Of a stretch of 64,000 nucleotides of DNA, positions 760 through 50,802 are shown piece after piece. The translations under genes were made by a program, and so were the position numbers. The stretch is from Desulfomonile tiedjei DSM 6799 (GTDB lineage: Bacteria > Desulfobacterota > Desulfomonilia > Desulfomonilales > Desulfomonilaceae). The notes under the pieces are model-generated. The model was not told where the DNA came from, made no database searches, and saw only the letters and a program-made list of their open reading frames with translations. The stretch spans positions 1,240,001 to 1,304,000 of the forward strand of contig NC_018025.1 in the NCBI RefSeq assembly GCF_000266945.1. The letters are read 5' to 3'. Positions within the stretch are counted from its first letter, which is position 1. The number at the start of each line of letters is the position of its first letter.

Positions 760-762
760 GTG

Positions 763-3700: not shown

Positions 3701-6700
3701 TCATCAGTGCAAATTCAGGCTCGCCAACAAACGATCAGGTGACGTACGATCCGGTAAGTGGTTCACACACGCCGTACACCTTTACCGTAAGGGTGTTCGA
3801 TCCTTCAGCATCCGGCGGATACGTGGACACGGTTATCAGACTCTATGTAGATAATGTCGATCCGATCTGGACCACTCCGCCTATGTCAGTCGTCTTTACC
3901 GAAGACGGAACTACTCATCCGGGATACAGTCCGAATAATACGGATGAAAACCACGGAACAGAGACGGAATACACACTTGCTGCAGGAGCCGATGCTGTAC
4001 CTGACTGGCTGGCCGTCGATCGGTACACAGGGGAAATCTATGCTACCCGGACCCTCACGAACGCCGAAACCATGGGTACATGGAACATTCGAATTGTTTT
4101 TGACGACGGTCATGGAGGTGTTATAGATCAGACGCTCACGGTAACTCTGGACAATGTCCTGAATTTCACCACTCCAGGGAGTGCCTACTGGCAGGAGGAC
4201 AGCTCCACACAATTCTCATTCGACGTCAATACCGATGACGATCCTGCAGTCACATACTCGCTTGTGGCAGGAAGTATTCCTACCTGGTTACAGGGACATC
4301 TTACTATCGATCCCTCAACGGGAGTTCTCAGCACAGACGCTGGATTTTCCGCTGATAACACGCTACCTGGAACGCATACGTTTGTGATCCATGCTGAAGA
4401 CGGTCACGGCGGAGGCAATCAGACGTTTACGCTGATCGTCCCCAATAGAGATCCGGTGTTTACCCAAACGACATTCATTGGCGTTGACGGTATGCACGAA
4501 GATTCCGGCACGGATATTATAGACTTGCATACAGACGACGAAGGGCAGGGCACTACCTATTACACCTGGTCGGGAGCGCCGCAGTGGATGCAATTGGACC
4601 CGTTGACGGGCATTATAACTGCAGATCCCACGAACAGACACGTAGGCACCTACACCTTCACGGTCACTGCTCATGACCTGAATGGAAGCAGGTCCTTCGG
4701 GTATGTCGATCCGAGCGATCCGGACGGAATCACCGGAAGCACCACAGAGACGATCACCATTGAGGTAGTGAACCGCGATCCGGTGTTCTCTTCATCCGAC
4801 AACACTACTGTCCAAGAAGATACCGCTCTGAGTTTCAACGTCCAGACAGATGATGAATTCGATGACAAAAGCGCACCGGGCACAACTTACAGCCTGGTAG
4901 GTTCCGGAGTCCCCTCCTGGATTAGCATCAACTCCAAGACAGGACTCATTACCGGGAATCCCACCAATGCCGAAGTGGGCGACTATACTTTCCTGGTGAG
5001 GGTTGATGACGGGAATGGCAGCGTTGTCGATCAGAACTTTACTCTCCACGTTACGAACAAGGCAGTAAGCTTCCTTAATCCACCGGGAACCAGTTACACC
5101 TTTACTCTGACAGAGGACGCTACTCCCGTACGATTCAATCTGTTGTCTGATGACGAAGGCCAACACAATCTCAGCGCTGGAACTCAGGTCTACTATTCTC
5201 TCGATCCTGCGACTACTCCGCCTGGCGTGCGGTTCGCCGACGACGGGTTCGGCTTCAATGCGGATGCGTATGGGTTCCTGTGCAGCACGAGTGGAGTCGT
5301 CGTGGTAAGTCCCACGAATTCCGAAGTGGTGAACGACCCGAACGGGCTGATTGTTCCTATTAAAGTGTTCGATGGCAATGGTGGAGAGGATACCATCAAT
5401 TTCGTACTCAAGGTGCAGAATACCGATCCTGTGTATACGACGCCCAACGCCGTCATCTGGACTGAAGAGCAGCTTACCAATTTACCTTTTAACGTAAGCA
5501 CCACGGACGAACCATTCGAACGTTTTTTTGGCGATAAGATCGATTATACGTTGATCGGAGCGCCGTCCTGGTTACAGATCGACGCCAAAACAGGGGAACT
5601 CTCGATCGATCCGTTGAGCACTCAGAATGCCGACGGGTCACCAGACAATCATCTGGTAGGAGTGTACACCTTCACCATTGATTTCTTCGATGGAACCGTT
5701 CACGCCTACCAACCGTTCACACTTACGGTCAACAACAGTCCGACGGACATTACGACTCACGTATCGGATCAGGTCATTACCGAAGACACGCTCCTCCAGA
5801 TAACAAACGACATGGTGCATGCCATCGACGAATACTCGATGTACACCGAGGATTATTACACTCTGGAGATATCGCTCAATAACAACGGAACCTGGATCCG
5901 CATAGATGATGGAACCTATAATACGACGAACAACGCGTGGAATGGCGCTGATATCATATTCGATACCAAGACCGGAGCCATATCCTGGACTCCCAACAAT
6001 GCGGATGTGCCCAAGATTCTCGATGCAGGCGTATATCATCATGCATTCAGGATCACGCATCATGACGGCCATGGTAGCTCCGATGTGGACACTTTTTTCA
6101 TAACGATCGACAACGTCGAACCTACGCTTCCACAGGACCCGATTCCTCCGTTGATCCCGGACTGGGTGCTTACGGAAGATACTCTTTACAGCTACTTGCA
6201 AAACTACCTTCAGTCGGATGAAGAAGGTGTCGGGGTCACCTACAGACTACAGATCAGCGTAAAGGGAGATGGTTCCGACTGGACCGATTGGAATGCTTTT
6301 GTCGGAAATAAACCCAATGGGACCTACGGCGGAGCGATAAGCTTCAATACCCAAACCGGCGAGATCATCTGGACTCCAACCAATGCTGACGTCACTTTTG
6401 ATGCGGCAGGCAACCCGACAGTGCCTTACAAGTTTCGTGTTCAGGCCGACGACGGGAATCCCACGAACAATCTTTCACCCTGGCGTGAATTTAGCGTAAC
6501 GGTCCTCAATGCAGATACTCAAGTCGGTCGGAACACGTCATTTCAACCTCTCCAAGACCGAACCGTGAACGAAGATTCGCCCATGACCCTGGCAAACAAT
6601 AACGTTGTGGCTCGAGATGAGCAGATTGAGGCTCCGTCAGGTTCTATAAGATTTTCGGATACGTATTTCGAATTGTGGATAGATGTTGACAATACCGGCC

Positions 6701-9700
6701 CGCTGGCTCCGGTCCTTTACACTGACTACAATGCAAGCAATGACGCTTTGGCAGCGGACATCACCTTCAACAGAGAAAACGGCGCAATCGGGTGGACTCC
6801 CAATGACCGCAACCTTGCGCTGAACGAAAACTCTCACCAGTTTCTGTTCATTGTAAAACACTTTGACGGTCGAGGGGATGAGGCTCAGGACGACTTCGTA
6901 GTGACGGTGAATAATCAGCCCCCGAGAATTACAAATATCGGTACATGGAATCTTGTTGAAGACGATACTGCGGCCAATTCAACCTACAATATCCAATCCG
7001 ACGAAGAAAACCTCGGAATTGGCGTCACCTACAAACTGGAATTCTGGGACGGGGTGTCTTGGATTAACGTGACCTCCGGATATCAGCCTAACGGACCCAC
7101 CGGTGGAATTATCAATTTCGATCCGGTCACCGGAGTAGTCGTATGGCAGACCACCAATGCAGACGTTACAGTTAATTCCCTGGGCGGACAAGATCGTCCT
7201 GCGTATCAGTTTCGGGTCTCAGCAGATGATGCTCACCCTGCAACCAGCTATACCAATCCTCCCCTCACATTTAATGTGAACGTGTGGAATACAGCCACGG
7301 ATATTACTGATACAGGTCCCCAGGCACTCACGGAAGACTCTCCCTGGACGCTTGACGGTGCCTCGGTTTACGCTCGGGACGAGCAGATCGGTACGGGCAC
7401 CTACTATTCGCTGCAGATCGATGACGGAACCGGGCCTGTTTCTCTTGCCACGTGGAATGCAAACAACGGTACAGGCAACGACATCGTGCTGAACACTTTG
7501 ACCGGTCAAATCGACTGGACCCCGAACAACGCGGACGTGGGCAATTATACATTCACCTTGACCCATAATGACGGTCACCAGAGCACCGCATCCGACAACT
7601 TCACCGTAACGGTGACGAACGATCCGCCAACATTGACAGTCCCCGCCACCTGGGACGTGCATGAAGACACTCTTTTCACCCTGGATCAGTCGCTGGTGGA
7701 TTCCAGCGATGAAGGTATCGGACCGTCGCAGTACATTTTGTATATAGACGGTGTACTCTGGACTCCGGGGTACAGCCCGAATGCCGGTGGCGGAGCGATC
7801 GTCTTCAACACCACGACAGGACAGATTGACTGGCAAAGCACAAACGCAGATGTGACAATCGATACGGGTGGAAACGTGTTCAGAGCGCCATACGAGTTCG
7901 TTATCACCATCGACGACGGACACGGAGGAGTACTCACAGCATCTCCTATGTTGGTGACAGTCACCAACGAGCCTACTGTCGTGGGTGATATTCCGAATCA
8001 GCCGATTTTGGAAGACGATCATCTGTACATCAATACGACTGCCACCGACGAGCAGGTGGGGCTCGGCACATACTACACTCTTGAAGTGGATGACGGATCG
8101 GGCTCGGTCGATGTGGTCACGTACAATCTGAATGCCGGGCTTGGAGACGACATCGATTTCAACGTGCTTACCGGCGAAATCAACTGGGATCCTAATAACG
8201 AGGATGTGGGCACGTACACTTTCGTGGTAACGCACTACGACAACCATAACACTTCAAGTTTCGACACGTTCCAGATTACGGTGAACAATAGACCGCCGAC
8301 CATAACCAATCCCGGTCCTTGGACCTTGATTGAAGACGATACTGCGGCAAACTCAACTCTGGATATCTTCTCCGATGACGAGGCTCTCAGCGGAGGAGTG
8401 ACATACCTCCTGGAAATCAGCCTGGACAATGGCCTTACCTGGTCAACGGTGACTTCCGGGGACCGGCCGAACGGCCCCACTGGTGGGGAAATTCTCTTTG
8501 ATGAAAACACCGGCGTAATCGTCTGGCAGACGACCAATGCAGATGTCACCATAAATTCTTTGGGCTTGCAGGACAGAACTCCGTATCTGTTCCGGATATC
8601 GGGTGACGACAATCATCCCGGAGTGGATTACACGAATCCGCCGGTTCAATTTTCTGTCAATGTCCGAAACGATCCCACTAACATAACCGATATCGGGCCT
8701 CAATCCTTGACCGAACATGTGCCGTTTACACTTGATGGCGCTTCTGTGAACGCCCGTGACGAACAAATAGGGACCGGCACTTCTTACTCGCTCCTGATCG
8801 ACAATGGTTCTGGATTCGTCACTCTGGCGACATGGAATGCAAATAATGGAACCGGCAGCGACATCTCTCTGAACACTTTGACCGGTCAAATCGATTGGAC
8901 TCCCAACAATGCAGACGTGGGCAATTACACGTTTCGCATGATCCACAATGACGGCCATCAATCGACAGCTCCGGACGATTTCACCGTTTCCGTAACGAAT
9001 GTTCCCCCTACACTGGATATTCCAATAAGCTGGGAAGTGCATGAGGATACGCTGTTCACGCTGGATCAGTCGGACGTGGACTCCAGTGATGAGGGGCAGG
9101 GGCCGACTCATTACACCTTGTATGTTGATGGCGTTGCATGGTACTCCGGATTCCGTGCGAATGCGGATGGCGGCGAGATAATCTTCAACACACTAACTGG
9201 CGAGATCGACTGGCAGAGCACGAATGCTGACGTGACCGTAGACTCGGGTGGTGCACCGTTCAGAGCGCCGTACGTGTTCACCATTGAAGTGGATGACGGT
9301 CATGGCGGAGTGACCTCAAAGACCATGGACGTCACGGTGACCAACGAAGCGACCGTAATCAGCGATATCACCAATCAATCGGTAACTGAAGACAATCACC
9401 TGACAGTATCCGAGCTGATCGTAACCGCAACGGATGAACAGGTCGGCCCGGGAACCTACTACACTCTTGAAGTAGACGATGGTTCAGGTTTTGTTTCTCT
9501 TACCACATGGAATGCGAATAACGGGGTAGGTGACGACATCTCATTCAACGCGACGAACGGTCAAATTGACTGGGATCCTAATAATGAAGATGTGGGAACG
9601 TACACGTTTCGCGTAACCCATTATGACAATCACAATACATCCAGCAGTGACACGTTCCAGGTTTCGGTAAACAATAGACCTCCTGCGATCACCAATCCGG

Positions 9701-12700
9701 GCCCGTGGACATTGATCGAAGACGATACTGCGGCAAACTCCACCCTGGACATTTATTCCGATGACGAGGCGCTCAGCGGAGGGGTGACGTATCTTCTGGA
9801 AATTAGTCTGGACAATGGTCTTACCTGGACAACAGTGACTTCCGGAGACCGGCCGAACGGCCCGACTGGTGGGGAGATTCTTTTTGATGAAAACACTGGG
9901 GTAATCGTCTGGCAGACCACGAATGCAGATGTTACCATCAATTCTCTGAGTGGCCAGGATAGGATTCCTTATCTATTCCGGATATCCGGTGATGATAGCA
10001 ATCCCGGAGTCGAATATACGAATCCTCCGGTTCAGTTCTCTGTCAATGTGCTGAACGATCCCACAGATATAACCGACGTGGGGCCTCAATCTTTGACTGA
10101 AGATACGCCGTTTACTCTTAACGACTCTCTTGTGCAAGCCCGCGATGAAGAAGTAGGAACGGGAACTTCTTACTCTTTACAGATCGATAATGGATCCGGA
10201 TTCACTTCCTTGGCCGCGTGGAACGCGAGCAACGGTATGGGAGCTGACATTTCTTTCAACACTTTGACCGGCCAAATCGACTGGACTCCGAACAACGCGG
10301 ATGTGGGGAATTATACGTTTCGTATAACCCACAATGATGGGCATCAGTCAACAGCTTCGGATGACTTTAGCGTTTCCGTTGCAAATAACGATCCGACACT
10401 GGATGTCCCGATTAGCTGGGAAGTGCACGAGGATACGCTGTTCACACTAGATCAGTCGGACGTGAATTCCAGCGATGAAGGCGTAGGCCCCACCCAGTAC
10501 ACGTTATACGTTGACGGCATTGCATGGTACTCCGGATTCCGTGCGAATGCGGATGGCGGCGTAATCGTCTTCAATACCGCGACCGGCGAGATCGACTGGC
10601 AGAGCACCAATGCTGACGTGACTATAGATACGGGCGGTGGGGTGTTTAGAGCACCGTACGTGTTCACCATCGAAGTGAACGACGGTCATGGCGGTGTGGT
10701 CAGTAAGACCATGAATGTGGACGTGACCAACGAACCCACGATAATCAGCGATATTACGAATCAGACGATAACGGAAGACAGTCACCTGACGGTATCGGAT
10801 CTGATCGTAACCGCTACTGACGAACAGGTCGGTCCGGGAACCTACTACACGCTGGAAGTAGATGACGGCTCGGGCTTTGTTTCTCTTGTCACCTGGAATG
10901 CGAATAACGGGACGGGCAACGACATACTCTTCAACACGATCTCAGGTCAGATCGATTGGGACCCCAACAATGCTGATGTGGGCACGTACACGTTTCGTGT
11001 AACCCATTATGACAATCACAATGCATCCAGCAGTGACACGTTCCAGGTTGATGTTGCGAACAACGATCCGACCCTGGATATTCCGATTAGCTGGGAAGTG
11101 CACGAGGATACGCTGTTCACTTTGGACGAGTCGGACGTGAATTCCAGCGATGAAGGCGTAGGACCGACCCAGTACACGTTGTACGTTGACGGCATTGCAT
11201 GGTACTCGGGATTCCGTGCGAATGCGGATGGCGGCGTAATCGACTTCAATACTGCGACCGGTGAGATCGACTGGCAAAGCACCAATGCTGACGTGACTAT
11301 AGATACGGGCGGTGGGGTGTTTAGAGCACCGTACGTGTTCACCATCGAAGTGAACGACGGTCATGGCGGTGTGGTCAGTAAGACCATGAATGTGGACGTG
11401 ACCAACGAACCCACGGTAATCAGCGATATTACAAATCAATCGGTAACGGAAGACAGTCACCTGACGGTATCGGATCTGATCGTAACCGCTACTGACGAAC
11501 AGGTCGGTCCGGGAACCTACTACACGCTGGAAGTAGATGACGGCTCGGGCTTTGTTTCTCTTGTCACCTGGAATGCGAATAACGGGACGGGCAACGACAT
11601 ACTCTTCAACACGATCTCAGGTCAGATCGATTGGGACCCCAACAATGCTGATGTGGGCACGTACACGTTTCGTGTAACCCATTATGACAATCACAATGCA
11701 TCCAGCAGTGACACGTTCCAGGTTGATGTTGCGAACAACGATCCGACACTTGATGTCCCGATAAGCTGGGAAGTGCACGAAGATACGCTGTTCACTTTGG
11801 ACGAGTCGGACGTGAATTCCAGCGATGAAGGCGTAGGCCCGACCCAGTACACGTTGTACGTTGACGGCGTTGCGTGGTATTCGGGATTCCGTACTAATGC
11901 GGATGGCGGCGAAATCGTCTTCAATACCGCGACCGGCGAGATCGACTGGCAGAGCACCAACGCTGACGTAACCATAGATACGGGCGGTGGAGTATTCCGG
12001 GCTCCGTACGTGTTCACCATCGAAGTGAACGACGGTCATGGCGGTGTGGTCAGTAAGACCATGAATGTGGACGTGACCAACGAACCCACCATAATCAGCG
12101 ATGTTCCCAATCAGACGGTAACTGAAGACACTCATTTGACAGTATCCGATCTGGTGGTCAATGCAACGGATGAACAGGTGGGGCCGGGAACCTATTACAC
12201 GCTGGAAGTAGACGACGGCTCGGGCTTTGTATCTCTCGGCACCTGGAATGCAAATAACGGAACAGGTAACGACATACTCTTCAACACGATCACAGGTCAG
12301 ATCGATTGGTACCCCAATAATGCTGATGTGGGCACGTATACATTCCGCGTGACCCATTATGACAATCACAATGCATCCAGCAGTGACACGTTCCAGGTTG
12401 ATGTTGCGAACAACGATCCAACACTGGATATTCCGATAAGCTGGGAAGTGCACGAAGATACGCTGTTCACGCTTGACCAGTCGGACGTGAATTCCAGCGA
12501 TGAAGGCGTAGGCCCGACCCAGTACACGTTGTACGTTGACGGCATTGCGTGGTACTCCGGATTCCGTGCGAATGCGGATGGCGGCGTAATCGACTTCAAT
12601 ACTGCGACCGGTGAGATCGACTGGCAAAGCACCAATGCTGACGTAACCATAGATACGGGCGGTGGAGTATTCCGGGCTCCGTACGTGTTCACCATCGAAG

Positions 12701-15324
12701 TGAACGACGGTCATGGCGGTGTGGTCAGTAAGACCATGAATGTGGACGTGACCAACGAACCCACGATAATCAGCGATATTACGAATCAGACGATAACGGA
12801 AGACAGTCACCTGACCGTGTCCGATCTGGTGGTCAATGCAACGGACGAACAGGTCGGTCCGGGAACCTACTACACGCTGGAAGTAGATGACGGCTCCGGC
12901 TTCGTATCTCTCGACACCTGGAATGCGAATAACGGAACAGGTAACGACATACTCTTCAATACAACATCAGGGCAGATAGACTGGGACCCCAATAATGCTG
13001 ATGTGGGCACGTACACGTTCCGCGTGACCCATTACGACAATCACAATACCTCCAACAGCGATACGTTCCAGGTTGACGTTGCGAACAACGATCCAACACT
13101 GGATATTCCGATTAGTTGGGAAGTGCACGAAGATACGCTGTTCACTTTGGACGAGTCGGACGTGAATTCCAGCGATGAAGGCGTAGGCCCGACCCAGTAC
13201 ATGTTGTACGTTGACGGCGTTGCGTGGTATTCGGGATTCCGTACTAATGCGGATGGCGGCGAAATCGTCTTCAATACCGCGACCGGCGAGATCGACTGGC
13301 AGAGCACCAATGCCGACGTGACTATAGATACGGGCGGTGGGGTATTCCGGGCTCCGTACGTGTTCACCATCGAAGTGAACGACGGTCATGGCGGTGTGGT
13401 CAGTAAGACCATGAATGTGGACGTGACCAACGAACCCACCATCATCGGCGATGTTCCCAATCAGACGGTAACTGAAGACACTCATTTGACAGTATCCGAT
13501 CTGGTGGTCAATGCAACGGATGAACAGGTGGGGCCGGGAACCTATTACACGCTGGAAGTAGACGACGGCTCGGGCTTTGTATCTCTCGGCACCTGGAATG
13601 CGAATAACGGGGCAGGAGGAGACATTCTCTTCGACGGGACGTCGGGACAGATCGATTGGGATCCCAATAATGCTGATGTAGGCACGTATACATTCCGCGT
13701 GACCCATTATGACAATCACAATACATCCAGCAGTGACACGTTCCAGGTAAGGGTGAACAACGATCCGTCCTCTTTCACTGTACCGAGCCAGTGGACGCTG
13801 CACGAGGATGATGGCACAAACAATCCCGGCATTCCGTCATTATGGACTCTGGATGAGACATTGGTCAACTCCAGTGACGAAGGTGTCGGACCGACTCAAT
13901 ATACCTTGTACATAGACGGAGTGCTTTGGACGCCGGGATACAGACCCAATGGGCCCGATGGCGGAGAAGTCGTTTTCAACTCTTTGACCGGCGAAATACA
14001 GTGGCAGACCACGAATACGGATGTCACTATTGACACGGGAGGCGATCAGTTCAGGGCTCCGTATCAGTTCACCATCCACCTGGATGACGGTCATGGCGGT
14101 ACTGCAGATAGAACTATGGACGTGAATGTAACCAACGAGGTCACCGTGATCGGCGCCATTCCGGATCAGGTAATTCAGGAGGACGGCATATCTCTCGATC
14201 TGAGTGATGCTGTTGTTCATGCCAATGACGAAAGAGTGGGCCCCGGCACTTTCTACACATTGGAGATTGAGCGTGATGGTGACCCCGGATTTGTCGATGT
14301 CAGCACCTATAACGCGACGAACAATCAAGGGTCGGATATCGCTTTCGATGCGACAACAGGCTCCATGAAATGGGATACCACCAATCGGGATGTGGGGCAG
14401 TATACGTTTCGGGTAACGCATCACGACGGGCATCAGAGCACGTCAGCCGAAGAATTTAACGTGTCGGTCCTGAATACCGATCCGGTGTTCACAACTCCCC
14501 CTCCTGACGGGGAAGTGATACGCGCCACACTGTGGTTCCAATATGACCCGAATACAACCGATGAAGGACAGCATGACTGGCGCGGCGACGACAATGTGAC
14601 ATACTCGCTGTTTCAGGCACCTTCGGGAATGACAATAGATTCGCACACAGGCTTCGTGCAATGGCGAACCGATCCTGCCTTTGCCGGGGACGTGCCCGTC
14701 ACGATACTTGTTCTGGACGGAAACGGCGGTTCTGCGCTGCAGAGTTTCACGATCACCGTGGATCTGCCTGCCGGAGATATGCCGTACGAACCTCGAAACC
14801 CCGAGGTTTTCCCGATCGACAAAGGTCCTGACGAGTATCGCGAATCTCTGGAACGGTTCGATATAGGATCTCCCGATTATAAACAGTTGTTAGACAAGAT
14901 TGTGTTCCCGGAGGATTTTCTGCGTCTGCCCGGTGGCAGCGTGGTCGGGGACATTTTGCATCCGAGTGATGACAGTCTGGAAGCCGTGTTGAAGAATTTG
15001 AGCAACGGTAATCTTCAGCAGCCGATTCCTGAATATCACGGGAGCGTTCCTCCTGTGACAAAGCTGGAAGGCTACACTCGTGAGGTGTTCTTAGGAAAAC
15101 GGCTTTACTTCGATGCGGAAGAGATCGATTTGTGGGAACGAATGGAAGATTTGGCTCAGCCCAACCTTGGTGCGGCCGGGAGTACTTCACCCGAAACACC
15201 TCTGGAAGGTTACTCTGAAGCGGTTGAAGAAGGAAAAAGACTCAATTTCGGGTTCTTCCCCATTCAAGAGGCGGTATCTCTGAAACTGGAAGATCTTAAG
15301 ATTGCCGATATTCTGGGATTATAA
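763..15324 (+). CDS. Giant multi-domain Ig-like/cadherin-like surface protein (LEPR-XLL type)
   Basis: Predicted extracellular or surface-anchored adhesin of about 4853 residues. There is no classical signal peptide. Residues 1-35 end in LEERIVLDA, matching the LEPR-XLL motif near the N-terminus of many giant exported proteins. About 42 domains of 80-120 residues follow, each with an xEDxxxxF opening, a WLxIDxxTGxI core, DVGxYTFxVxxxDGHGG and a closing N-x-x-P linker, typical of putative Ig (He_PIG) and cadherin-like folds. The C-terminal 185 residues are different and carry a duplicated LEGYxxxVxxGKRLxF motif. No RTX nonapeptides were seen. Start: ATG at 763 has GAGG six bases upstream; GTG at 760 is too close to it. 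The periplasmic adaptor gene follows at 15639. Function as an adhesin is inferred from architecture. Confidence 0.85.
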   Translation: MKKFIDSLFVKFIEPLEVFEQLEERIVLDASIGAITDQNVPEASTMNVDVQATDEGETGFTYSLEIDSGSGPQSVADFNAGVGADVSFNQSTGLISWTPNNHDVGSYTFIVSSNDGGNGSAPHTDQQSFQVTVDNIAPVITSVANGTFTEDAGPQVINISADFNLGGAFSLSGAPGWLSLTTVNDGQNAILSADPGNAETGVHVFSVLADDGHGGVTSQIFTLTVNNTLDFTTADNASVVEDTQLLFDVHTDSEQSGKPVTYSLTGAPGWVSIDPSTGVISGNPDNTLVGSYNFVVNAQSAEGNQSQPFTLTVQNDAPGFLNFETTIHMTENSGNQTFDVQNEDEGISLSAVPYTIVSLDGGTVPSWLSINQSTGLITANPPLGTVGSHTLVVQFNDGNAPDGVQQQTFTLDIGNIPNEFTSSDATTWTEDVQNQSFNVQTVEEGLPGAGVTYSFDLSDPKVTGGGLIWDNWLQIDPTTGVIRPIDDLSQPDNSRVGDHHFTIVSTEYTGASPVLQDFTLTVTNTPPEIGLPNTVNVQEDSTGTTFQVQLTDPEPGAVFSLINPPTIAGVQVSIDPNTGLMTIPTGGNVDVGGIYVFNVRVDDQHGGVATQFFTINLVNKVPVFTELPSTGGSGYPELNVTEDSPFSFDLNVASPLNDEADGPTTYSLLGAPGFLSINSATGVLSGTPDNGDVGSYTFTVRLNDGKGGVTDQVMVINVANVAPSFPAIPNVTWIEDGGYQSFSGINNTDEGQGPATYSFSDAPSWLNIDTNTGYIWAVPENAQVGAYFITVTANDGHGGVVSQSFTLTVQNVAPSWDPLRDPSNGSPHYDSVIDINGSTQIIDLHTTDERSDNNNEYILDLPALPSWLSIAWDDKTGQIVVDPTGPGVKPATFDLDIPIHFFDGTVTIDQTLQLHFTDIPPIDPIQYDPGFYSPNTVTWLEDEPDQVFNVQWQNENDAGVSYQLLAGAPDWISIDPITGVISANSGSPTNDQVTYDPVSGSHTPYTFTVRVFDPSASGGYVDTVIRLYVDNVDPIWTTPPMSVVFTEDGTTHPGYSPNNTDENHGTETEYTLAAGADAVPDWLAVDRYTGEIYATRTLTNAETMGTWNIRIVFDDGHGGVIDQTLTVTLDNVLNFTTPGSAYWQEDSSTQFSFDVNTDDDPAVTYSLVAGSIPTWLQGHLTIDPSTGVLSTDAGFSADNTLPGTHTFVIHAEDGHGGGNQTFTLIVPNRDPVFTQTTFIGVDGMHEDSGTDIIDLHTDDEGQGTTYYTWSGAPQWMQLDPLTGIITADPTNRHVGTYTFTVTAHDLNGSRSFGYVDPSDPDGITGSTTETITIEVVNRDPVFSSSDNTTVQEDTALSFNVQTDDEFDDKSAPGTTYSLVGSGVPSWISINSKTGLITGNPTNAEVGDYTFLVRVDDGNGSVVDQNFTLHVTNKAVSFLNPPGTSYTFTLTEDATPVRFNLLSDDEGQHNLSAGTQVYYSLDPATTPPGVRFADDGFGFNADAYGFLCSTSGVVVVSPTNSEVVNDPNGLIVPIKVFDGNGGEDTINFVLKVQNTDPVYTTPNAVIWTEEQLTNLPFNVSTTDEPFERFFGDKIDYTLIGAPSWLQIDAKTGELSIDPLSTQNADGSPDNHLVGVYTFTIDFFDGTVHAYQPFTLTVNNSPTDITTHVSDQVITEDTLLQITNDMVHAIDEYSMYTEDYYTLEISLNNNGTWIRIDDGTYNTTNNAWNGADIIFDTKTGAISWTPNNADVPKILDAGVYHHAFRITHHDGHGSSDVDTFFITIDNVEPTLPQDPIPPLIPDWVLTEDTLYSYLQNYLQSDEEGVGVTYRLQISVKGDGSDWTDWNAFVGNKPNGTYGGAISFNTQTGEIIWTPTNADVTFDAAGNPTVPYKFRVQADDGNPTNNLSPWREFSVTVLNADTQVGRNTSFQPLQDRTVNEDSPMTLANNNVVARDEQIEAPSGSIRFSDTYFELWIDVDNTGPLAPVLYTDYNASNDALAADITFNRENGAIGWTPNDRNLALNENSHQFLFIVKHFDGRGDEAQDDFVVTVNNQPPRITNIGTWNLVEDDTAANSTYNIQSDEENLGIGVTYKLEFWDGVSWINVTSGYQPNGPTGGIINFDPVTGVVVWQTTNADVTVNSLGGQDRPAYQFRVSADDAHPATSYTNPPLTFNVNVWNTATDITDTGPQALTEDSPWTLDGASVYARDEQIGTGTYYSLQIDDGTGPVSLATWNANNGTGNDIVLNTLTGQIDWTPNNADVGNYTFTLTHNDGHQSTASDNFTVTVTNDPPTLTVPATWDVHEDTLFTLDQSLVDSSDEGIGPSQYILYIDGVLWTPGYSPNAGGGAIVFNTTTGQIDWQSTNADVTIDTGGNVFRAPYEFVITIDDGHGGVLTASPMLVTVTNEPTVVGDIPNQPILEDDHLYINTTATDEQVGLGTYYTLEVDDGSGSVDVVTYNLNAGLGDDIDFNVLTGEINWDPNNEDVGTYTFVVTHYDNHNTSSFDTFQITVNNRPPTITNPGPWTLIEDDTAANSTLDIFSDDEALSGGVTYLLEISLDNGLTWSTVTSGDRPNGPTGGEILFDENTGVIVWQTTNADVTINSLGLQDRTPYLFRISGDDNHPGVDYTNPPVQFSVNVRNDPTNITDIGPQSLTEHVPFTLDGASVNARDEQIGTGTSYSLLIDNGSGFVTLATWNANNGTGSDISLNTLTGQIDWTPNNADVGNYTFRMIHNDGHQSTAPDDFTVSVTNVPPTLDIPISWEVHEDTLFTLDQSDVDSSDEGQGPTHYTLYVDGVAWYSGFRANADGGEIIFNTLTGEIDWQSTNADVTVDSGGAPFRAPYVFTIEVDDGHGGVTSKTMDVTVTNEATVISDITNQSVTEDNHLTVSELIVTATDEQVGPGTYYTLEVDDGSGFVSLTTWNANNGVGDDISFNATNGQIDWDPNNEDVGTYTFRVTHYDNHNTSSSDTFQVSVNNRPPAITNPGPWTLIEDDTAANSTLDIYSDDEALSGGVTYLLEISLDNGLTWTTVTSGDRPNGPTGGEILFDENTGVIVWQTTNADVTINSLSGQDRIPYLFRISGDDSNPGVEYTNPPVQFSVNVLNDPTDITDVGPQSLTEDTPFTLNDSLVQARDEEVGTGTSYSLQIDNGSGFTSLAAWNASNGMGADISFNTLTGQIDWTPNNADVGNYTFRITHNDGHQSTASDDFSVSVANNDPTLDVPISWEVHEDTLFTLDQSDVNSSDEGVGPTQYTLYVDGIAWYSGFRANADGGVIVFNTATGEIDWQSTNADVTIDTGGGVFRAPYVFTIEVNDGHGGVVSKTMNVDVTNEPTIISDITNQTITEDSHLTVSDLIVTATDEQVGPGTYYTLEVDDGSGFVSLVTWNANNGTGNDILFNTISGQIDWDPNNADVGTYTFRVTHYDNHNASSSDTFQVDVANNDPTLDIPISWEVHEDTLFTLDESDVNSSDEGVGPTQYTLYVDGIAWYSGFRANADGGVIDFNTATGEIDWQSTNADVTIDTGGGVFRAPYVFTIEVNDGHGGVVSKTMNVDVTNEPTVISDITNQSVTEDSHLTVSDLIVTATDEQVGPGTYYTLEVDDGSGFVSLVTWNANNGTGNDILFNTISGQIDWDPNNADVGTYTFRVTHYDNHNASSSDTFQVDVANNDPTLDVPISWEVHEDTLFTLDESDVNSSDEGVGPTQYTLYVDGVAWYSGFRTNADGGEIVFNTATGEIDWQSTNADVTIDTGGGVFRAPYVFTIEVNDGHGGVVSKTMNVDVTNEPTIISDVPNQTVTEDTHLTVSDLVVNATDEQVGPGTYYTLEVDDGSGFVSLGTWNANNGTGNDILFNTITGQIDWYPNNADVGTYTFRVTHYDNHNASSSDTFQVDVANNDPTLDIPISWEVHEDTLFTLDQSDVNSSDEGVGPTQYTLYVDGIAWYSGFRANADGGVIDFNTATGEIDWQSTNADVTIDTGGGVFRAPYVFTIEVNDGHGGVVSKTMNVDVTNEPTIISDITNQTITEDSHLTVSDLVVNATDEQVGPGTYYTLEVDDGSGFVSLDTWNANNGTGNDILFNTTSGQIDWDPNNADVGTYTFRVTHYDNHNTSNSDTFQVDVANNDPTLDIPISWEVHEDTLFTLDESDVNSSDEGVGPTQYMLYVDGVAWYSGFRTNADGGEIVFNTATGEIDWQSTNADVTIDTGGGVFRAPYVFTIEVNDGHGGVVSKTMNVDVTNEPTIIGDVPNQTVTEDTHLTVSDLVVNATDEQVGPGTYYTLEVDDGSGFVSLGTWNANNGAGGDILFDGTSGQIDWDPNNADVGTYTFRVTHYDNHNTSSSDTFQVRVNNDPSSFTVPSQWTLHEDDGTNNPGIPSLWTLDETLVNSSDEGVGPTQYTLYIDGVLWTPGYRPNGPDGGEVVFNSLTGEIQWQTTNTDVTIDTGGDQFRAPYQFTIHLDDGHGGTADRTMDVNVTNEVTVIGAIPDQVIQEDGISLDLSDAVVHANDERVGPGTFYTLEIERDGDPGFVDVSTYNATNNQGSDIAFDATTGSMKWDTTNRDVGQYTFRVTHHDGHQSTSAEEFNVSVLNTDPVFTTPPPDGEVIRATLWFQYDPNTTDEGQHDWRGDDNVTYSLFQAPSGMTIDSHTGFVQWRTDPAFAGDVPVTILVLDGNGGSALQSFTITVDLPAGDMPYEPRNPEVFPIDKGPDEYRESLERFDIGSPDYKQLLDKIVFPEDFLRLPGGSVVGDILHPSDDSLEAVLKNLSNGNLQQPIPEYHGSVPPVTKLEGYTREVFLGKRLYFDAEEIDLWERMEDLAQPNLGAAGSTSPETPLEGYSEAVEEGKRLNFGFFPIQEAVSLKLEDLKIADILGL
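7621..10389 (+). repeat. Two tandem four-domain supermodules (ABCD, about 1.38 kb each)
   Basis: Inside the giant gene the domain types A (WxVHEDTLFTLD), B (xxTEDxHLxV, TYYTLEVDDGSG), C (NPGPWTLIEDDTAANST) and D (ITDxGPQxLTE) occur in the order ABCD twice, at 7621-9000 and 9001-10389. A preceding C-D pair lies at about 6916-7620. Coordinates come from the shared linker preceding each A domain. Confidence 0.8.
10390..13762 (+). repeat. Five tandem 675-bp A-B repeats in the giant gene
   Basis: The A linker recurs at 10390, 11065, 11740, 12415 and 13090, exactly 675 bp apart; the last unit is one codon shorter. Long stretches are identical at the DNA level, for example about 290 bp of units 1 and 2 (from roughly 10790 and 11465). 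Units 2 and 4 share GFRANADGGVIDF while 3 and 5 share GFRTNADGGEIVF and DVPNQTVTEDTHL, so a two-unit block was itself duplicated. Confidence 0.9.
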
Positions 15325-45226: not shown

Positions 45227-46657
45227 TTACAGGAAAAGCATAATTTCGTTCAATTTGGTTTTTATTCTCCGGGTCAGGATGAACCAGAGAGATTCGTTTT
45301 TTGTATCTATATGTGCTATGCCAAGCATACCCGGTTTGACATCCGGAGGCCGGTCCATCAGCTCTGCTCTGACTCTGAAGACCGCCCCAATTCGCTCCAC
45401 CGTTTCCGATTTAGGAGCAATGTTCTGCACTTTGATGGCATATGGCTGATCGGGTCGGTAGTTGAAATACACCGAGCCTCTTTGATTCGGCTCTATGTAC
45501 CCGATATCACTTTCTCGCACAAACACGTCAGTTGCAAGGTTCTCATGAGGTGCAATCCTGCAAAATGGTTCTCCGGCTTTAAAACGCTTTCCCACGAGCG
45601 TCTCCACTTTCTTGGTCAATACGATTCCGTCAATGGGCGACTTGATATTGAGAAATTGCCTTTGCCAATCGAGAAACTCTAACTGTTGTCGAGCTCGTAT
45701 GCTTTTGATCTGGACCAGTTTGCTTTCTGCAAGCTTCAGCGGGTTCTCGGCTCCCATTCCTCGCAAAATTTCAGCTTCAGTCTCCAGGGCCTTTATTGCA
45801 CGCTTGGCCTCTCTTATTTTGTAATCGATTTCCTGGGATTCCAATTCTGCCAAAATTTGATTCTTCTTAACGGATTCTCCCTCTTTCGTCATAATCTTGC
45901 TGATGACACCTTCGATTTCCACAAAAGAGACAAATTCGTGGTCCGGAACAACTTCTGTTTTTCCGCCGATAACCAGCGTGGTCGGGTACCATAGCACCAC
46001 GAGCAGGAGAAAGAGACCGACTCCTGCGGTTATGAGTCGTATTCGAGACTTCTTCCGGTCTCGAACAGCATTTTCAGGCGACATGGCCTCGAAAAAAGAC
46101 TTTCTCACCCGGCTGTCATGAGCAAGCAGCCATTTCTCTGCCAGTGCCGACGAAAAGAACGGGACCATATTCATGAACGTATAGGTCTCGATTTGTCCGG
46201 GAGGGACTTTTTCAAAGAATTCCAGTATGAGGTGACCGAGCACTTTATCGTAGAGAACAAAAGGAATTAGCATCAAAGACTGGCAACCGGTAGACGCGAT
46301 GTACTCTCTCAGTTCCTCAGCAGTTTCAGGTGGAATGTCATCAGCAACAGCTCCATTTGAGAACAATACCAGTCCGGTTCGAATATCCCTGAGCTTCGGA
46401 GCCAACTCATTTATCTTTTGGACCAGTCCGGCTCGGGTTTCGAGTCTGGGCTGATTGTTCGCGGCTGCCAGGACCGATTTGCCGTTCATGTGAAGAATCA
46501 GCATTGAGCGATCGAACGGGAGCAGCGCCCTCGTATCGTTCACAAGAATGAACTGGAACTCGTCGAGAGTCTGGGCCCGAGCGGCGTTCTTTGCCAGTTC
46601 CAGCCCTATGGCAAGAGCCTTTCGTAGTCCATCGTGAGGTGCTTCGGTTGTATCCAT
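45227..46657 (-). CDS. GAF-domain periplasmic adaptor (HlyD-like) protein
   Basis: 476 residues in two parts. Residues 15-175 form a GAF-like sensory fold in the cytoplasm (FILVNDTRALLPFDRSMLIL, LMLIPFVLYDKVLGHLIL). A membrane helix lies at about 207-224. Beyond it is an HlyD-type adaptor: lipoyl half VSFVEIEGVISKIMTKEGES, a helical hairpin (KIREAKRAIKALETEAEILR onward), FLNIKSPIDGIVLTKK, and a beta-barrel ending VKPGMLGIAHI. A GAF domain on a membrane fusion protein is unusual and could tie transport to an intracellular signal (inference). It follows the PqqD-S2P-HlyD gene, with a repeat element between them. Confidence 0.8.
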   Translation of the reverse strand: MDTTEAPHDGLRKALAIGLELAKNAARAQTLDEFQFILVNDTRALLPFDRSMLILHMNGKSVLAAANNQPRLETRAGLVQKINELAPKLRDIRTGLVLFSNGAVADDIPPETAEELREYIASTGCQSLMLIPFVLYDKVLGHLILEFFEKVPPGQIETYTFMNMVPFFSSALAEKWLLAHDSRVRKSFFEAMSPENAVRDRKKSRIRLITAGVGLFLLLVVLWYPTTLVIGGKTEVVPDHEFVSFVEIEGVISKIMTKEGESVKKNQILAELESQEIDYKIREAKRAIKALETEAEILRGMGAENPLKLAESKLVQIKSIRARQQLEFLDWQRQFLNIKSPIDGIVLTKKVETLVGKRFKAGEPFCRIAPHENLATDVFVRESDIGYIEPNQRGSVYFNYRPDQPYAIKVQNIAPKSETVERIGAVFRVRAELMDRPPDVKPGMLGIAHIDTKNESLWFILTRRIKTKLNEIMLFL

Positions 46658-46672
46658 CTATGAAAATCCTTT

Positions 46673-46803
46673 GATACCGATTCGCTTTTTTTTCTGGAAG
46701 GCTGGAGTATCCTTTGCTCCGGACGACGCAAAGCCGTCTAATCACTCCGCTCAGGACACTCCAGCCTTCGCTGTGTTACGTACAAAACTGCGAAATGGTA
46801 TGA
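46673..46803 (-). repeat. ATACCATTTCGC-family repeat, copy 3 (inverted, full length)
   Basis: It starts GATACCGATTCGC and ends GCGAAATGGTATGATA. The middle, GGAGTATCCTTTGCTCCGG through GGACACTCCAGCC, is the inverse of the 32693-32760 segment. It sits in the 313-bp gap between the PqqD-S2P-HlyD and GAF-HlyD genes and so interrupts the probable operon. Confidence 0.75.
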
Positions 46804-46970
46804 TACGATTTCGCCAGAATGAATAAAACCGAGTGTCCTGTCGGGAAGATCGAGCCCTGTTACAATCCAGTAGTAGTCGGTTTCCGGGCCGATCAAGTCA
46901 GATTCAAGAGCGAATTCGTATCGCATTGTCCTTGGAGTACAAAAGTCTTGCCCTCAAAACGGAATGTACC

Positions 46971-49178
46971 TCAAAAAACGACTTCCCGATGGAATGTGCC
47001 GTACGCGGCATCGACAACCCTTCTAAAAATGCTCTTGGGCGGATGCTTCACGACAAGCCTGCCAGTCATTCCGAGAGGTATGCCGGTTGGATTGGGAAAA
47101 TCCATCCTGCACAGATAGTACGGATCGAGTGGTGCATCTTTACCGATCTGATCCTTGATTTCCGTTGCTATTTCGCCTCCAAAACGGCTCGAAAAAGGAG
47201 AACCATCGAGGTTTTCCGTCTTAAACGGGTTGATCTCTCTTACAGTCAGATTGACTGACATGCCCGTGCCCACCGGCCACCAGGCAGATACGGTTCCGTT
47301 TTTCATGATTGCGGATACATCGGATTCCGGGAGGAGAGCCTGTACTTCACACGCTGTGCAGTTTGCCATTTCTCCCACGACTGAGCCCTTGCCAGGGCTT
47401 GCACCTGGTTGAAACACCGGCGACAACGTGGTTATCGCTCCATCGAACGGAGCTTTCCACTCGATGAGAGCGAGGTCTTCCTCGATTCGCTTTATGGCAT
47501 CCTCAATCTGAGAAAGCTCGATATACTTCAAATCCAATTTATAGAGGTCCTGTTGACTGTCTCGTATGATGGCAATTTCCGTTCGCACCAGTTGGTGTTC
47601 TACTTGCTTGTTTTTCAGTTCGTACTTGAGTGGCAAAGGATTTAGCCGAAAGATGACTTCTCCCGAACGGACCGAATCGCCCTGCTTTACACGTACTTCA
47701 CTGACCGGTGCTTCCGCTGGAACCACAATTTGCCTCACCAGCGCAGATTCCAAATAGCATGGGTACACGGAATGATCGGACCACGGAAATGAAATCAAGG
47801 CAATCACGCTGATCGAAACGATCAGGAACACAGCCACTCCCCCGGGCCGAAAACGCATTTCCGATTTTTTTGTGAAAAGGTTCATTGCTCCCTTGCTCAA
47901 GGGCCGTACGATAAACATGAAAAACGCCGTTGCTGCCAGAATTACTCCCAGAGTCTTGTCGAATTTCGTGTAGATTCTCTCCAGTATTCCGGCGTACAAC
48001 ACGAATCGATACAGTACGGCCGATACACCATAACTCACGAGGATACTGAATTCCCGTCCGGAGGAAGGGGGAGCTTCTACGGAATCGATACCAAGGACTC
48101 GATTCATGAAAAGATATCTTAGAACAGCGAACGATTTCGCCTGCAAATTCGGCATACGAAGCCAATCGATGAGTACGAAATAGCCGTCGAATTTCAGTAA
48201 AGGATTCCCATTAAAGAACAGGGACGATATGACAGAGATTGCCATAAGGTAAAAAGCTACCGAATTTACAATTCCCGGTTTTGTGAAATACCAAATGTAA
48301 ATGGCAAATACTGCAACAGCGAACTCGGACAAAATGCCCGCCAAACCGATCAGCATGCGCTCCCTTCGATCGGAGAGCTGCCAGGCTGCCGTCGTATTGC
48401 AATACAGACAGGGAAAAAAGATGAGAAACGCGATGCCCATCTCAGGAACCCGCAAACCCCGGCTCTTGGCCACGTAAGCATGGGCAAATTCATGGACCAG
48501 TTTCACAAGCACGAGAGCAATCCAGAGCACAATGAGATTCTGGATGTTAAAGAAGAATAAGTACTCAAAATCAAAGCGCTGAAATCCCGTTATCAGGAGG
48601 TAAAACGCTCCGGGGATCAAACAAGACAGGATCGTAAGCGTGACTCGGTTTACGAGCATCCGCCATAGGAAGAGTGTCTTTTCAAGGAAAGCATCGGGGT
48701 TCAAAAGTGGAACGTAGAGATAGTAGAGTTTGAGTATGCTCCTCTTCTGGAGTTCCGTCTCGACCCTCTCCTTCAATTCTTTCTGAACCCCGGAGGTTCC
48801 GTAGATCGTTCCCAGGAGGAGTCCGGCTTTCGAGAATTTATCGACGAGTTTGGCCGCGTGATTGAGCGTAAAATATCTGCCGCTCAACTTCAAACGTTCA
48901 ATCGCATCGCGGAGAGAGCGTGTTCCGTCCAATACTTTGAGGAGTTCGAATTCATATGAGGAGATACGGAAGAATTTATTGGATACAGGGTCTTCGAGAA
49001 TTATCGATTGACCGCCATATGCCTCATCATGCGCGTGCAGGAGAATGTCCGGTCTGAAACGTGGTCTTGTATCATTCATCGAGATGTTCTGCCAAAGCGG
49101 AATGTGCAGAGCATCACCCGGAGATTTTTCCCGAACGGATCTACCAAGGAAGCGCTCTTCGGACGAGTCCGGCTGCAC
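46971..49178 (-). CDS. PqqD-like / site-2 metalloprotease / HlyD fusion membrane protein
   Basis: 735 residues. A PqqD-like winged-helix segment (about 42-125) precedes a multi-helix membrane domain with the M50 zinc motif HEFAH (229-233) and the second motif NPLLKFDGY (325-333, zinc-binding Asp 331). The PCLYCNTTAAWQLSDRRERM block between them is typical of the YydH-type putative peptide zinc metalloproteases. From about 470 on there is an HlyD-like adaptor (IVVPAEAPVSEVRVKQGDS, helices, IEWKAPFDGAITTL, then IPLGMTGRLVVKHP). Catalytic residues look intact. It may process or translocate an envelope substrate. Start: GTG 49178, overlapping the upstream TolC-like gene by 38 bp; ATG 49079 is an alternative. 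Confidence 0.8.
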   Translation of the reverse strand: MQPDSSEERFLGRSVREKSPGDALHIPLWQNISMNDTRPRFRPDILLHAHDEAYGGQSIILEDPVSNKFFRISSYEFELLKVLDGTRSLRDAIERLKLSGRYFTLNHAAKLVDKFSKAGLLLGTIYGTSGVQKELKERVETELQKRSILKLYYLYVPLLNPDAFLEKTLFLWRMLVNRVTLTILSCLIPGAFYLLITGFQRFDFEYLFFFNIQNLIVLWIALVLVKLVHEFAHAYVAKSRGLRVPEMGIAFLIFFPCLYCNTTAAWQLSDRRERMLIGLAGILSEFAVAVFAIYIWYFTKPGIVNSVAFYLMAISVISSLFFNGNPLLKFDGYFVLIDWLRMPNLQAKSFAVLRYLFMNRVLGIDSVEAPPSSGREFSILVSYGVSAVLYRFVLYAGILERIYTKFDKTLGVILAATAFFMFIVRPLSKGAMNLFTKKSEMRFRPGGVAVFLIVSISVIALISFPWSDHSVYPCYLESALVRQIVVPAEAPVSEVRVKQGDSVRSGEVIFRLNPLPLKYELKNKQVEHQLVRTEIAIIRDSQQDLYKLDLKYIELSQIEDAIKRIEEDLALIEWKAPFDGAITTLSPVFQPGASPGKGSVVGEMANCTACEVQALLPESDVSAIMKNGTVSAWWPVGTGMSVNLTVREINPFKTENLDGSPFSSRFGGEIATEIKDQIGKDAPLDPYYLCRMDFPNPTGIPLGMTGRLVVKHPPKSIFRRVVDAAYGTFHREVVF

Positions 49179-50802
49179 TCTTCAGCGCATTCACCGGATA
49201 TCGAGAAACACGCGGTGGACTCGATTCGCTTACAGGAATGGCTGTGCTCACGGGATAATTCGTGCCCGCACAAGTGTTCAGGTCTGCTATGGCCGAATGA
49301 ACTTCACCCACTGCATAGAGCCGGTCCAGTTCCGCCTGAAGCTGGTTCGCTTTAGCTTTTTCTCGAGTTATGCGAATGAGCGATTGATCGGCTCCTCTCA
49401 TTTTGGCTGTTTCCACATCGACAGCTATCCGCAGAGCTTCACTCGCCTGTTGCGTCAATTCGGATGCTCTCTTGAAACGATCGATTGCCTTCATAGAATC
49501 AAGCGTCTTGAGTTTAACCTGAGTCAAAATGCCCATGGAAATAACAGCCCGGTCCTGATCGGTTTTAATGACCCTGTCTTTCGCTGCTCCATGCTCGAGG
49601 TAATTCGCTGTGAAATCCATGAGATCCCAGGTGATTCTCATTCCACCGTCAATCCAGTTTTTGTTGAGGAAAAATTTGTTCTCATCGCGAAAATAGCCGA
49701 TGAATCCATCAACTCGTGGGAAGAATTTCACCATCAGCCGTTTTGCGTCTGCCACGGAATTTGCGAACACTAGATCAGCCTGATAGCATTCGGGTCGATT
49801 CACAAGAGCTGCTGCCTCTAATGCACATGAATCCAGCATTGTTGGCGGAAGCGGCAGGAGACTGCCTTCAAGCTTCAAAGTGCTGCAAGGACTGACGTTC
49901 ATAGCTGCAGCCAATAGCTCCTTTTGCCTTTCAATGTCAGCGTAAACAGCCGCTAACTGGTTCTTGGCCTCAGTATGGAGGCTTTGTGCATTGAGGTATT
50001 CCTGGTTATCGATCAGAGCATTCTTCGCAAGGCTTCCGAGATCCTTCACAATGTTCTTGCGGTGATTCTCGAGAGCCTGGGCCTTGGGCAGTGCTTCATA
50101 CAATGCAAGAAGCCGGTAAAATGCAGAAGTTACTGTTCCCACCAGTTGCTGTGCGACGCGAACACGCTGATAACGCGAGTACAGCGCGTCATTGCTTTTG
50201 ATCTGCCCGAGGTACCCTGCCATGAGCGCATCCATGGGTGACCAGGCAGCCTGGACATTCCAGTAGCGCTGATTCCGTTCTCGAGCCGTGGAAAAGTTTG
50301 TCACACCCGTTGCAGGTCCAGGCCCGACCACTTCCCATGCACCTTCCTGATCGATAACATCACTGCGGCTCCATGCGGGCCGGTCGCGCTGCATGAGTCC
50401 ATAAAATACGTCCATTCGGGGCAACATTTTGACTTGGCCGGCTCGCGCTATTTTGTCTCTAACCTGCTCTTCCCATAGCACAGCCTGCAAATCGAGACTA
50501 TTCGCCAACGCTATTCGCGTGCAATCCTGGATTGTTAGAATTGTCTGTCCGCCGCTCACCGCTTCAAGAGGACGCGCACGATACATTGACATCACCGCCG
50601 AAGCATTTTCCTGACGGACAAATGACCAATTACTTGTGGTACAGGAAGTGAGACCCAGGAAAGCAACGACCAGCAACGGTAAGCAGGAAAGTAAAGAGCT
50701 ACCACAACGATGTGGAATACCGAACCACCGGCGCAACTGAAGAATAAGCCTATGACCCACTCCACAAGTCGATCTCTTGTGGAGAACAACATTCCAGCCC
50801 AT
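49141..50802 (-). CDS. TolC-family outer membrane efflux lipoprotein
   Basis: 553 residues. A lipobox (LTSC, at the end of LLVVAFLGLTSC) follows an unusually long basic N-terminus, so the mature protein is probably lipid-anchored. The body has the two-fold helical repeat of outer membrane efflux proteins: LTIQDCTRIALANSLDLQAV, later DADRAVISMG-like helices (KTDQDRAVISMGILTQVKL) and LQAELDRLYAVGEVHSAIADL near the end. TolC-type trimers form the exit duct for type I or RND pumps. ATG 50802 is preferred because GGAGG lies five to six bases upstream; the frame extends to 50853. It overlaps the next gene by 38 bp. Confidence 0.85.
   Translation of the reverse strand: MGWNVVLHKRSTCGVGHRLILQLRRWFGIPHRCGSSLLSCLPLLVVAFLGLTSCTTSNWSFVRQENASAVMSMYRARPLEAVSGGQTILTIQDCTRIALANSLDLQAVLWEEQVRDKIARAGQVKMLPRMDVFYGLMQRDRPAWSRSDVIDQEGAWEVVGPGPATGVTNFSTARERNQRYWNVQAAWSPMDALMAGYLGQIKSNDALYSRYQRVRVAQQLVGTVTSAFYRLLALYEALPKAQALENHRKNIVKDLGSLAKNALIDNQEYLNAQSLHTEAKNQLAAVYADIERQKELLAAAMNVSPCSTLKLEGSLLPLPPTMLDSCALEAAALVNRPECYQADLVFANSVADAKRLMVKFFPRVDGFIGYFRDENKFFLNKNWIDGGMRITWDLMDFTANYLEHGAAKDRVIKTDQDRAVISMGILTQVKLKTLDSMKAIDRFKRASELTQQASEALRIAVDVETAKMRGADQSLIRITREKAKANQLQAELDRLYAVGEVHSAIADLNTCAGTNYPVSTAIPVSESSPPRVSRYPVNALKSAAGLVRRALPW

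Follow-up and report, generated by a model that had tools for sequence, protein, structure and literature searches.

The stretch of Desulfomonile tiedjei DSM 6799 DNA considered here, 64,000 nucleotides of contig NC_018025.1 (positions 1,240,001 to 1,304,000, hereafter the window), carries on its minus strand three genes encoding a TolC-type outer membrane lipoprotein, a fusion of an RRE-like domain, a site-2 protease and a HlyD-type adaptor, and a second HlyD-type adaptor with a GAF domain (Table 1). An initial annotation, made from the letters alone, had proposed that this trio forms an export system devoid of an ATP-binding cassette (ABC) transporter. The trio itself is confirmed, open reading frames (ORFs) and Pfam being in agreement, and since the same parts recur jointly at dozens of loci, their association is more than chance. 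The set includes the HlyD-type adaptor and the TolC-type outer channel known from type I secretion.

Table 1. Features of the gene set in the window, with positions counted from its first nucleotide
Feature	Position	Strand	Basis
Giant Ig-repeat surface protein, 4854 aa, putative substrate	760..15324	+	21 He_PIG stretches
N-terminal LExR signal LEERIVLDA, residues 23-31 of the giant	826..852	+	Profile E 1.3e-13 (sequence itself in profile)
Short RND-type periplasmic adaptor (family F2), 305 aa	15639..16556	+	F2 profile 2.6e-63 (built from other loci)
GAF-HlyD adaptor (family F1), 476 aa	45227..46657	-	F1 profile 1.8e-117 (may contain this protein, same cluster)
RRE-like/site-2 protease (M50)/HlyD fusion, 735 aa, putative inner-membrane component	46971..49178	-	Pfam, AlphaFold model
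Periplasmic adaptor part of the fusion (HlyD/MexA-type), residues 465-716	47031..47786	-	Pfam, model, structure match
NPLLKFDGY of the fusion, residues 325-333, probable third zinc ligand D331	48180..48206	-	Alignments
HEFAH zinc site of the fusion, residues 229-233	48480..48494	-	Alignments
Leader-binding (RRE) fold of the fusion, residues 37-126, predicted cytosolic	48801..49070	-	Structure match of model
TolC-type outer membrane lipoprotein (family F3), 570 aa	49141..50853	-	Pfam, F3 profile 5e-142 (may contain this protein, same cluster)

The TolC-like protein matches Pfam OEP (2.4e-7) and displays a lipobox-like LTSC; its start had been placed at the ATG at 50802, and the ORF extends to 50853. 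The fusion is recognized by Pfam as Peptidase_M50 (1.5e-9) and HlyD_3 (4e-8), the GAF-HlyD adaptor as HlyD_D23 (4e-18). The GAF domain of the latter, weak in sequence (E 0.015), is recovered in the AlphaFold model as a predicted GAF fold over residues 2-187 (Z about 15), followed by a single membrane helix and a MacA-like adaptor (residues 202-459). Mean predicted local distance difference test scores are 87.4 for the fusion and 90.9 for this adaptor.

In the model of the fusion, residues 37-126 match two leader-binding RREs of lasso peptide B1 proteins, that of the TbiB1-leader complex 5v1v (Z 10.4, root-mean-square deviation 2.7, 85 residues aligned, 8% identity) and 6jx3 (Z 10.4, 82 aligned). 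This region had been called PqqD-like, and certain plasmid relatives are annotated 'PqqD family'. As a Pfam family PqqD was named in none of the 65 aligned relatives (0/65 at E 0.01), and the predicted RRE fold was retained in its place. Residues 210-341 match RseP in the model (Z 10.9, 130 aligned, 25% identity), a score by itself modest for helices, yet Pfam M50 concurs and is detected in 65/65 relatives. Residues about 445-718 are predicted to fold like the MexA, EmrA and MacA adaptors; adaptor matches of the fusion and of the GAF-HlyD protein reach Z 13-17, and Foldseek, among the best 50 matches listed per model, returned adaptors only. Hydropathy indicates seven membrane segments plus one possibly re-entrant, a count that would fit a cytosolic RRE and a periplasmic adaptor.

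As the initial annotation had noticed, both motifs of the protease are intact. H229, E230 and H233 are invariant in 65/65 sequences of the alignment of relatives (A2) and in 17/17 sequences from a whole-protein search (A1, window protein among them). D331 is likewise invariant in the 17 A1 sequences, the window copy included, its invariance among the 65 A2 relatives being built in by the scan pattern, which contains the residue. The hallmarks of site-2 proteases, HExxH and a distal NPxxxxDG-type motif lying in membrane segments, are thus present, and this conservation of HExxH in 65 relatives and of HExxH with D331 in the A1 sequences makes it very likely, on the alignments, that proteolysis is part of the function of the fusion. 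Six genomes (G001, G015, G077, G118, G253 and G282) gave matches to the RRE/protease or protease part with the HlyD part unmatched, in G015 to the protease part only; they perhaps represent a separate branch.

A scan of genome contigs found at least 591 relatives of the fusion, of which the best 80 were kept. Among these 80 loci the carriers are Desulfomonile and other deltaproteobacteria, alpha-, beta- and gammaproteobacteria, and also Nitrospira, Verrucomicrobia, Lentisphaeria and Pirellulales. Gene neighbours were counted at the 50 loci whose core block is flanked by more than 2.5 kb on either side, the other 30 being dropped; of these 50, F1 is found at 47, F2 at 39 and F3 at 32 (profiles derived from these same loci). 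Very large ORFs, defined as at least 800 aa, or at least 300 aa when running off an edge, and counted among ORFs of at least 150 aa, are the next neighbour at 46/50 loci: they make up 48 of the 99 adjacent genes against 20 of the 306 others (p 3e-19). Clustering of ORFs of at least 80 aa from 96 loci revealed no additional family in more than 12 loci. One locus (L142) is a second copy of another (L141), and its full sequence was left out.

The complete row also travels on plasmids. On an Escherichia coli IncF plasmid it consists of a giant of 4459 aa, which begins with LESRQLFDGAA, a TolC-like protein, two adaptors and the fusion, and the fusion gene occurs in 24/5426 complete E. coli genomes, in 22 of them over at least 80% of its length. 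The copy on the IncF plasmid (L138; NZ_CP081687.1, 44300-65000) is complete, its giant being Ig-like, and has an IS1 element and a malT-annotated gene nearby. Plasmids of Niveispirillum and Azospirillum carry DUF4347 or Ig-like proteins in the same gene order, that of Azospirillum argentinense Az39 combining DUF4347 and Ig-like genes with TolC, two adaptors and the fusion, and LEPR-XLL or DUF4347 proteins adjoin the fusion in several genomes. At one locus (L037:11654-18001, genome G098), a second giant following the fusion gene begins with MNKVYRIIWSKVKERWVVVSE, which to us looks like an extended signal peptide of the kind found on autotransporters or on proteins of two-partner secretion.

The initial annotation had also pointed to a further adaptor at the other end of the window, beside a giant LEPR-XLL protein. 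The adaptor is indeed a member of family F2. The giant (alternative start, ATG at 763) carries the motif LEERIVLDA and scores 12.1 bits with the NCBI LEPR-XLL model (NF012209) against a cut-off of 17, and is thus better described as a divergent LEPR-XLL member. In a D. tiedjei metagenome-assembled genome (locus L046) a single row comprises the end of the giant, a DUF3467 gene, F2, TolC and the fusion, the last truncated by the contig end; identity to the window is 66% for giant residues 4120-4854, 71% for F2, 68% for TolC and 70% for the fusion. Consequently, the window holds the same set in two parts, on opposite strands and about 29 kb apart, and both the giant and the far adaptor are, judged by gene order and identity, members of the fusion's set. 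Their separation would reflect a rearrangement in this lineage. The small DUF3467 protein occurs in the row at two Desulfomonile-type loci (L005:12061-12441, 126 aa; L046:2265-2576, 103 aa); the window has no ORF of this type in the gap separating giant from adaptor.

Proteins encoded next to the fusion have an N-terminal motif in common, LExR-x-[VLM]-[FL]-D-[GA]-A. Searched by regular expression within the first 150 residues, it is found at 25/80 loci; 76,800 N-terminal residues yield 25 matches, and 269,672 residues elsewhere yield 3. We prefer this count to another motif count (28/80), which includes at least three short ORFs, likely chance matches. A large ORF lies within 3 kb of the core block at 59 loci, and its start is visible at 30. 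The signal is present on 27 of these 30 large neighbours, 24 by regular expression and three (L070, L097, L106) by profile alone, the profiles being partly built from the 24 and from none of the three.

The same association is seen among 297 genomes of the phylum. Here the fusion was scored as an A2 match spanning protease and adaptor parts, which holds for 14 genomes at the top of the sorted match list; at E 1e-10 this profile matches 193/297 genomes, among the matches listed mostly through the HlyD part alone. The NCBI LEPR-XLL model matches seven genomes, five of them with the full fusion, and a signal profile made from loci outside the phylum (A4; the L067 peptide, short at its front, left out) adds two, both fusion carriers. 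With these two models the signal is found in 7/14 fusion genomes against 2/283 others (p 3e-9). Adding a Desulfomonile-type profile (A5), partly derived from genomes counted, gives 8/14 against 3/283 (p 3e-10); both p values ignore relatedness (G208 and G252, for example, are of the same genus), and the counts retain a match in G144 to a 112-aa ORF, probably due to chance. In both G014 and G098 the row opens with the signal gene, and in G088 a LEPR gene comes after the fusion and one further adaptor. By coordinates, the frames beside the row reach 9795 codons in G252 and 15080 in G153. In a check of 37 of the 80 loci, corresponding to 36 genomes, A4 matched in 30 genomes, a partly circular count. 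Among the six A4-negative genomes, A5 matches occur in G298 (12), G299 (1) and G302 (1), and three have none. Thus, the genetic tie between the fusion set and giant LEPR-XLL-type proteins proposed in the initial annotation holds in gene neighbourhood, in the signal and in co-occurrence across the phylum.

D. tiedjei itself encodes many proteins with this signal. A5 finds 18 places in its genome at E <= 0.001, including the window giant, which is in the profile, and the signal lies near the reading-frame start at 20/20 loci examined. The 22 signal proteins read range from 305 to 4854 aa; for five of them the underlying match had an E value above 0.001. The highest mean hydropathy over 12 residues within their first 60 has a median of 0.95 and never exceeds 1.82, compared with a median of 2.45 for 52 F2 adaptors, 81% of which exceed 1.9; the measure is rough, 19% of the adaptors also lying at or below 1.9. 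By hydropathy, none of the 22 looks like a typical Sec substrate. Inspected by eye, without a model, their C-termini have no sequence common to all, and several (L223, L230, L232, L238) end in the same ELW repeat. In many of these proteins (L221-L238; e.g. L227:66-1118 and L230:88-1740) a tryptophan-rich stretch directly follows the signal (GWWYEDNGSGWWWEE... WYHGxHQYWA); Pfam named no family over this region in L221, L227 and L230. A second copy of the fusion (42%), located at 4.278 Mb, is accompanied by an adaptor and a DUF3467 gene.

Many Gram-negative bacteria carry a gene set that seems to recognize a short N-terminal tag of giant proteins and to export these by way of a membrane protease and an outer channel. 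We consider it probable that this set constitutes a dedicated export and processing machine for LExR-leader proteins, with no pump encoded alongside. By analogy with peptidase-containing ABC transporters (PCAT), which couple a leader protease to export, we propose a leader-processing exporter, in which the fusion, through its RRE-like and membrane protease domains, would take up the leader at the inner membrane, to be cut by the protease. The conduit to the surface would consist of three adaptors (fused, GAF-HlyD and short) together with the TolC-like lipoprotein. Translocation might be powered by cleavage and folding outside acting as a ratchet, or by a housekeeping motor. The combination of a predicted RRE fold, a protease and a leader-like motif fits the recognition and removal of a leader, and pump-less export is plausible. 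When 28 pairs were compared by a Mantel-type test, distances between signals correlated best with those of the protease domain (r 0.80, partial 0.61, p 0.0005), and the correlation with the adaptor part (r 0.63) disappears once corrected (partial -0.12). This result is suggestive of the protease domain being the signal reader, with the reservation that length and conservation vary between the domains. Whether the leader-reading intramembrane protease could itself be the inner-membrane gate, LExR cleavage and outside folding making export one-way, is a more speculative idea that we hold only tentatively.

Several observations weigh against such a machine. No energy source for translocation was found. 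The RRE, the other candidate for reading the signal, does not follow signal distance further than the other domains do in the same 28 pairs (r 0.48, partial 0.11, p 0.18), and it was set aside as reader in favour of the protease domain. In the home genome the signal genes are scattered, and 0/25 listed signal places fall within 10 kb of either fusion copy. The signal is absent from 3/30 large neighbours (L054, L086, L055): that of L054 looks Sec-type by eye, and at L055 the signal is missing from the nearest large ORF and present on the next gene (1737 aa). Six of the 14 fusion genomes are signal-free by the three profiles and by regular expression in the flanks fetched, and the genome of L046 (G297) has neither an A4 nor an A5 match, the start of its giant being off the contig. 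Conversely, G082 and G135 encode LEPR-type proteins without a detected fusion, pointing to another exporter or to missing assembly. Finally, one published LEPR-XLL giant has RTX domains like type I substrates (PMC10868602). The LEPR proteins of G082 and G135 (C422 and C59; L219 and L220), FETLEPRLLLDG and FEPLEPRLLLDA, run off the fetched stretch or the contig.

The alternative that fares best is a two-step export, in which Sec would carry the substrate across the inner membrane, the leader would tether it, and the site-2 protease would release it into the adaptor/TolC conduit, the machine serving the outer membrane step only. This would account for the lack of a motor encoded with the set and for outer parts resembling MacA/MexA and TolC; RseP-type proteases, to which the fusion is matched in the model, act on membrane segments, and the Sec-type appearance of the L054 neighbour points the same way. 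Set against it are the low hydropathy peaks of the 22 signal proteins relative to the F2 adaptors, albeit by the rough measure described above, and we regard two-step export as unlikely.

An ABC or other pump encoded elsewhere could also drive export, leaving to the fusion an accessory role in maturing or anchoring the substrate. The initial annotation had seen no ABC or resistance-nodulation-division (RND) gene beside the trio, and this stands: the window contains no match to PF00664 (ABC_membrane) or PF00873 (RND), and no ABC ATPase occurs among its 30 Pfam-scanned proteins (some short ORFs lying outside the scan). No RND pump gene was found in the set by Pfam; the major facilitator superfamily was not searched as such, and no further family exceeded 12 loci in the clustering. 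The genome as a whole has pumps to offer: besides a type I ABC exporter, three more proteins match PF00664, RND gives 22 matches, and the window itself has a MacB/FtsX-type permease. A dedicated ABC exporter elsewhere had been named at the outset as what would speak against a pump-less system. The type I exporter, at 4.098 Mb, comes after an RTX protein without the N-terminal signal, so that signal proteins and the RTX protein likely use two separate routes; the other ABC proteins were not tested. ABC-ATPase-like genes (family F4, 15 genes) do appear in the flanks of 12/96 loci, but they lie 1.6-9.5 kb from the fusion, with 7/15 on its strand and none inside the row, and thus look like ordinary neighbours. 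Within 1.5 kb of the core block, regular expressions flagged an ABC protein at only 2/80 loci, one of them the F1 adaptor itself. A pump elsewhere therefore appears quite improbable.

Two observations may be added on these pump genes. The permease gene (57015-58202), flanked by genes for a DegT aminotransferase and for an alanine dehydrogenase, was absent from the gene list of the initial annotation, and no ABC ATPase is present among its Pfam-scanned neighbours. The type I set (4.084-4.101 Mb; L241:15055-19501, L028:3-13375) comprises a large RTX protein, a 714-aa ABC exporter and a HlyD protein, with what looks by eye like an ankyrin-repeat protein directly upstream.

Maturation and export of a ribosomally synthesized and post-translationally modified peptide (RiPP), of YydH or daptide type, had been put forward in the initial annotation as an alternative. 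What survives of it is the ancestry: the daptide HExxH model is matched by 65/65 aligned relatives and the YydH/LiaK model by 53, and the predicted RRE fold is that of a leader-binding domain. However, the window fusion scores 153.1 bits against an equivalog cut-off of 300 for NF041824, the linked signal is carried by reading frames as long as 15080 codons, and modifying enzymes, sought among ORFs of at least 80 aa at the 96 loci (shorter ORFs were not surveyed), gave no recurrent family. A RiPP system is accordingly highly improbable. Equally hard to credit is a linkage without any export role, in which the fusion would be a regulated stress-signalling protease neighbouring large adhesin genes by chance; the RseP-type fold of the model would suit it, but the fused adaptor and the co-localized adaptors and TolC in several phyla would not.

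Were the protease itself the inner-membrane gate, the set would represent a class of pump-less secretion systems, widespread in Gram-negative bacteria and able to export proteins as long as some 15,000 residues, and the signal that many proteins of a genome share would be a new one for export. The proposed leader-processing exporter would place a site-2 protease at the position of the pump, and the N-terminal motif would become a predictor of exported proteins. As the set is present on plasmids and in culturable bacteria, it can be tested. We found no earlier description of such a system in the open-access literature, beyond which work may exist.

The closest known relatives of the fusion are the peptidases of RiPP pathways. 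In predicted fold and closest NCBIfam model it resembles the RRE-protease module of daptide maturation: in MpaP, too, an RRE-like fold precedes the M50 intramembrane protease, and both daptide precursors and LExR proteins carry an N-terminal leader containing LE. MpaP is an RRE-dependent intramembrane peptidase that removes the leader of precursors with the motif ELExMEAP (PMC10036551). EpeP is described as an enzyme thought to cleave and export, whose loss did not fully abolish production (PMC10885120). Unlike MpaP and EpeP/YydH, the fusion here is joined to a HlyD adaptor and set with TolC, and the linked proteins count hundreds to thousands of residues; in contrast to daptide and YydH pathways, no modifying enzymes were found among ORFs of at least 80 aa, and the fusion remains under the NCBIfam cut-off.

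Type I secretion shares with the present set HlyD-type adaptors, a TolC-type channel and giant substrates, and in PCAT a protease domain reads an N-terminal leader and is coupled to export (PMC8277102). The present set differs from both by having no ABC transporter, and from PCAT by an intramembrane metalloprotease in place of a C39 cysteine protease. With the tripartite pumps MacAB-TolC, MexAB-OprM and EmrAB-TolC it has in common the predicted adaptor folds and the TolC-type channel, whereas its row contains no RND or MacB pump gene and its putative substrates are large proteins. Lastly, LEPR-XLL (NF012209) and DUF4347 proteins display an N-terminal LExR motif on giants, as does the window giant, despite its score under the LEPR-XLL cut-off. 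Both are names without a function, and the system proposed here would provide these giants with a route, a signal and a machine.

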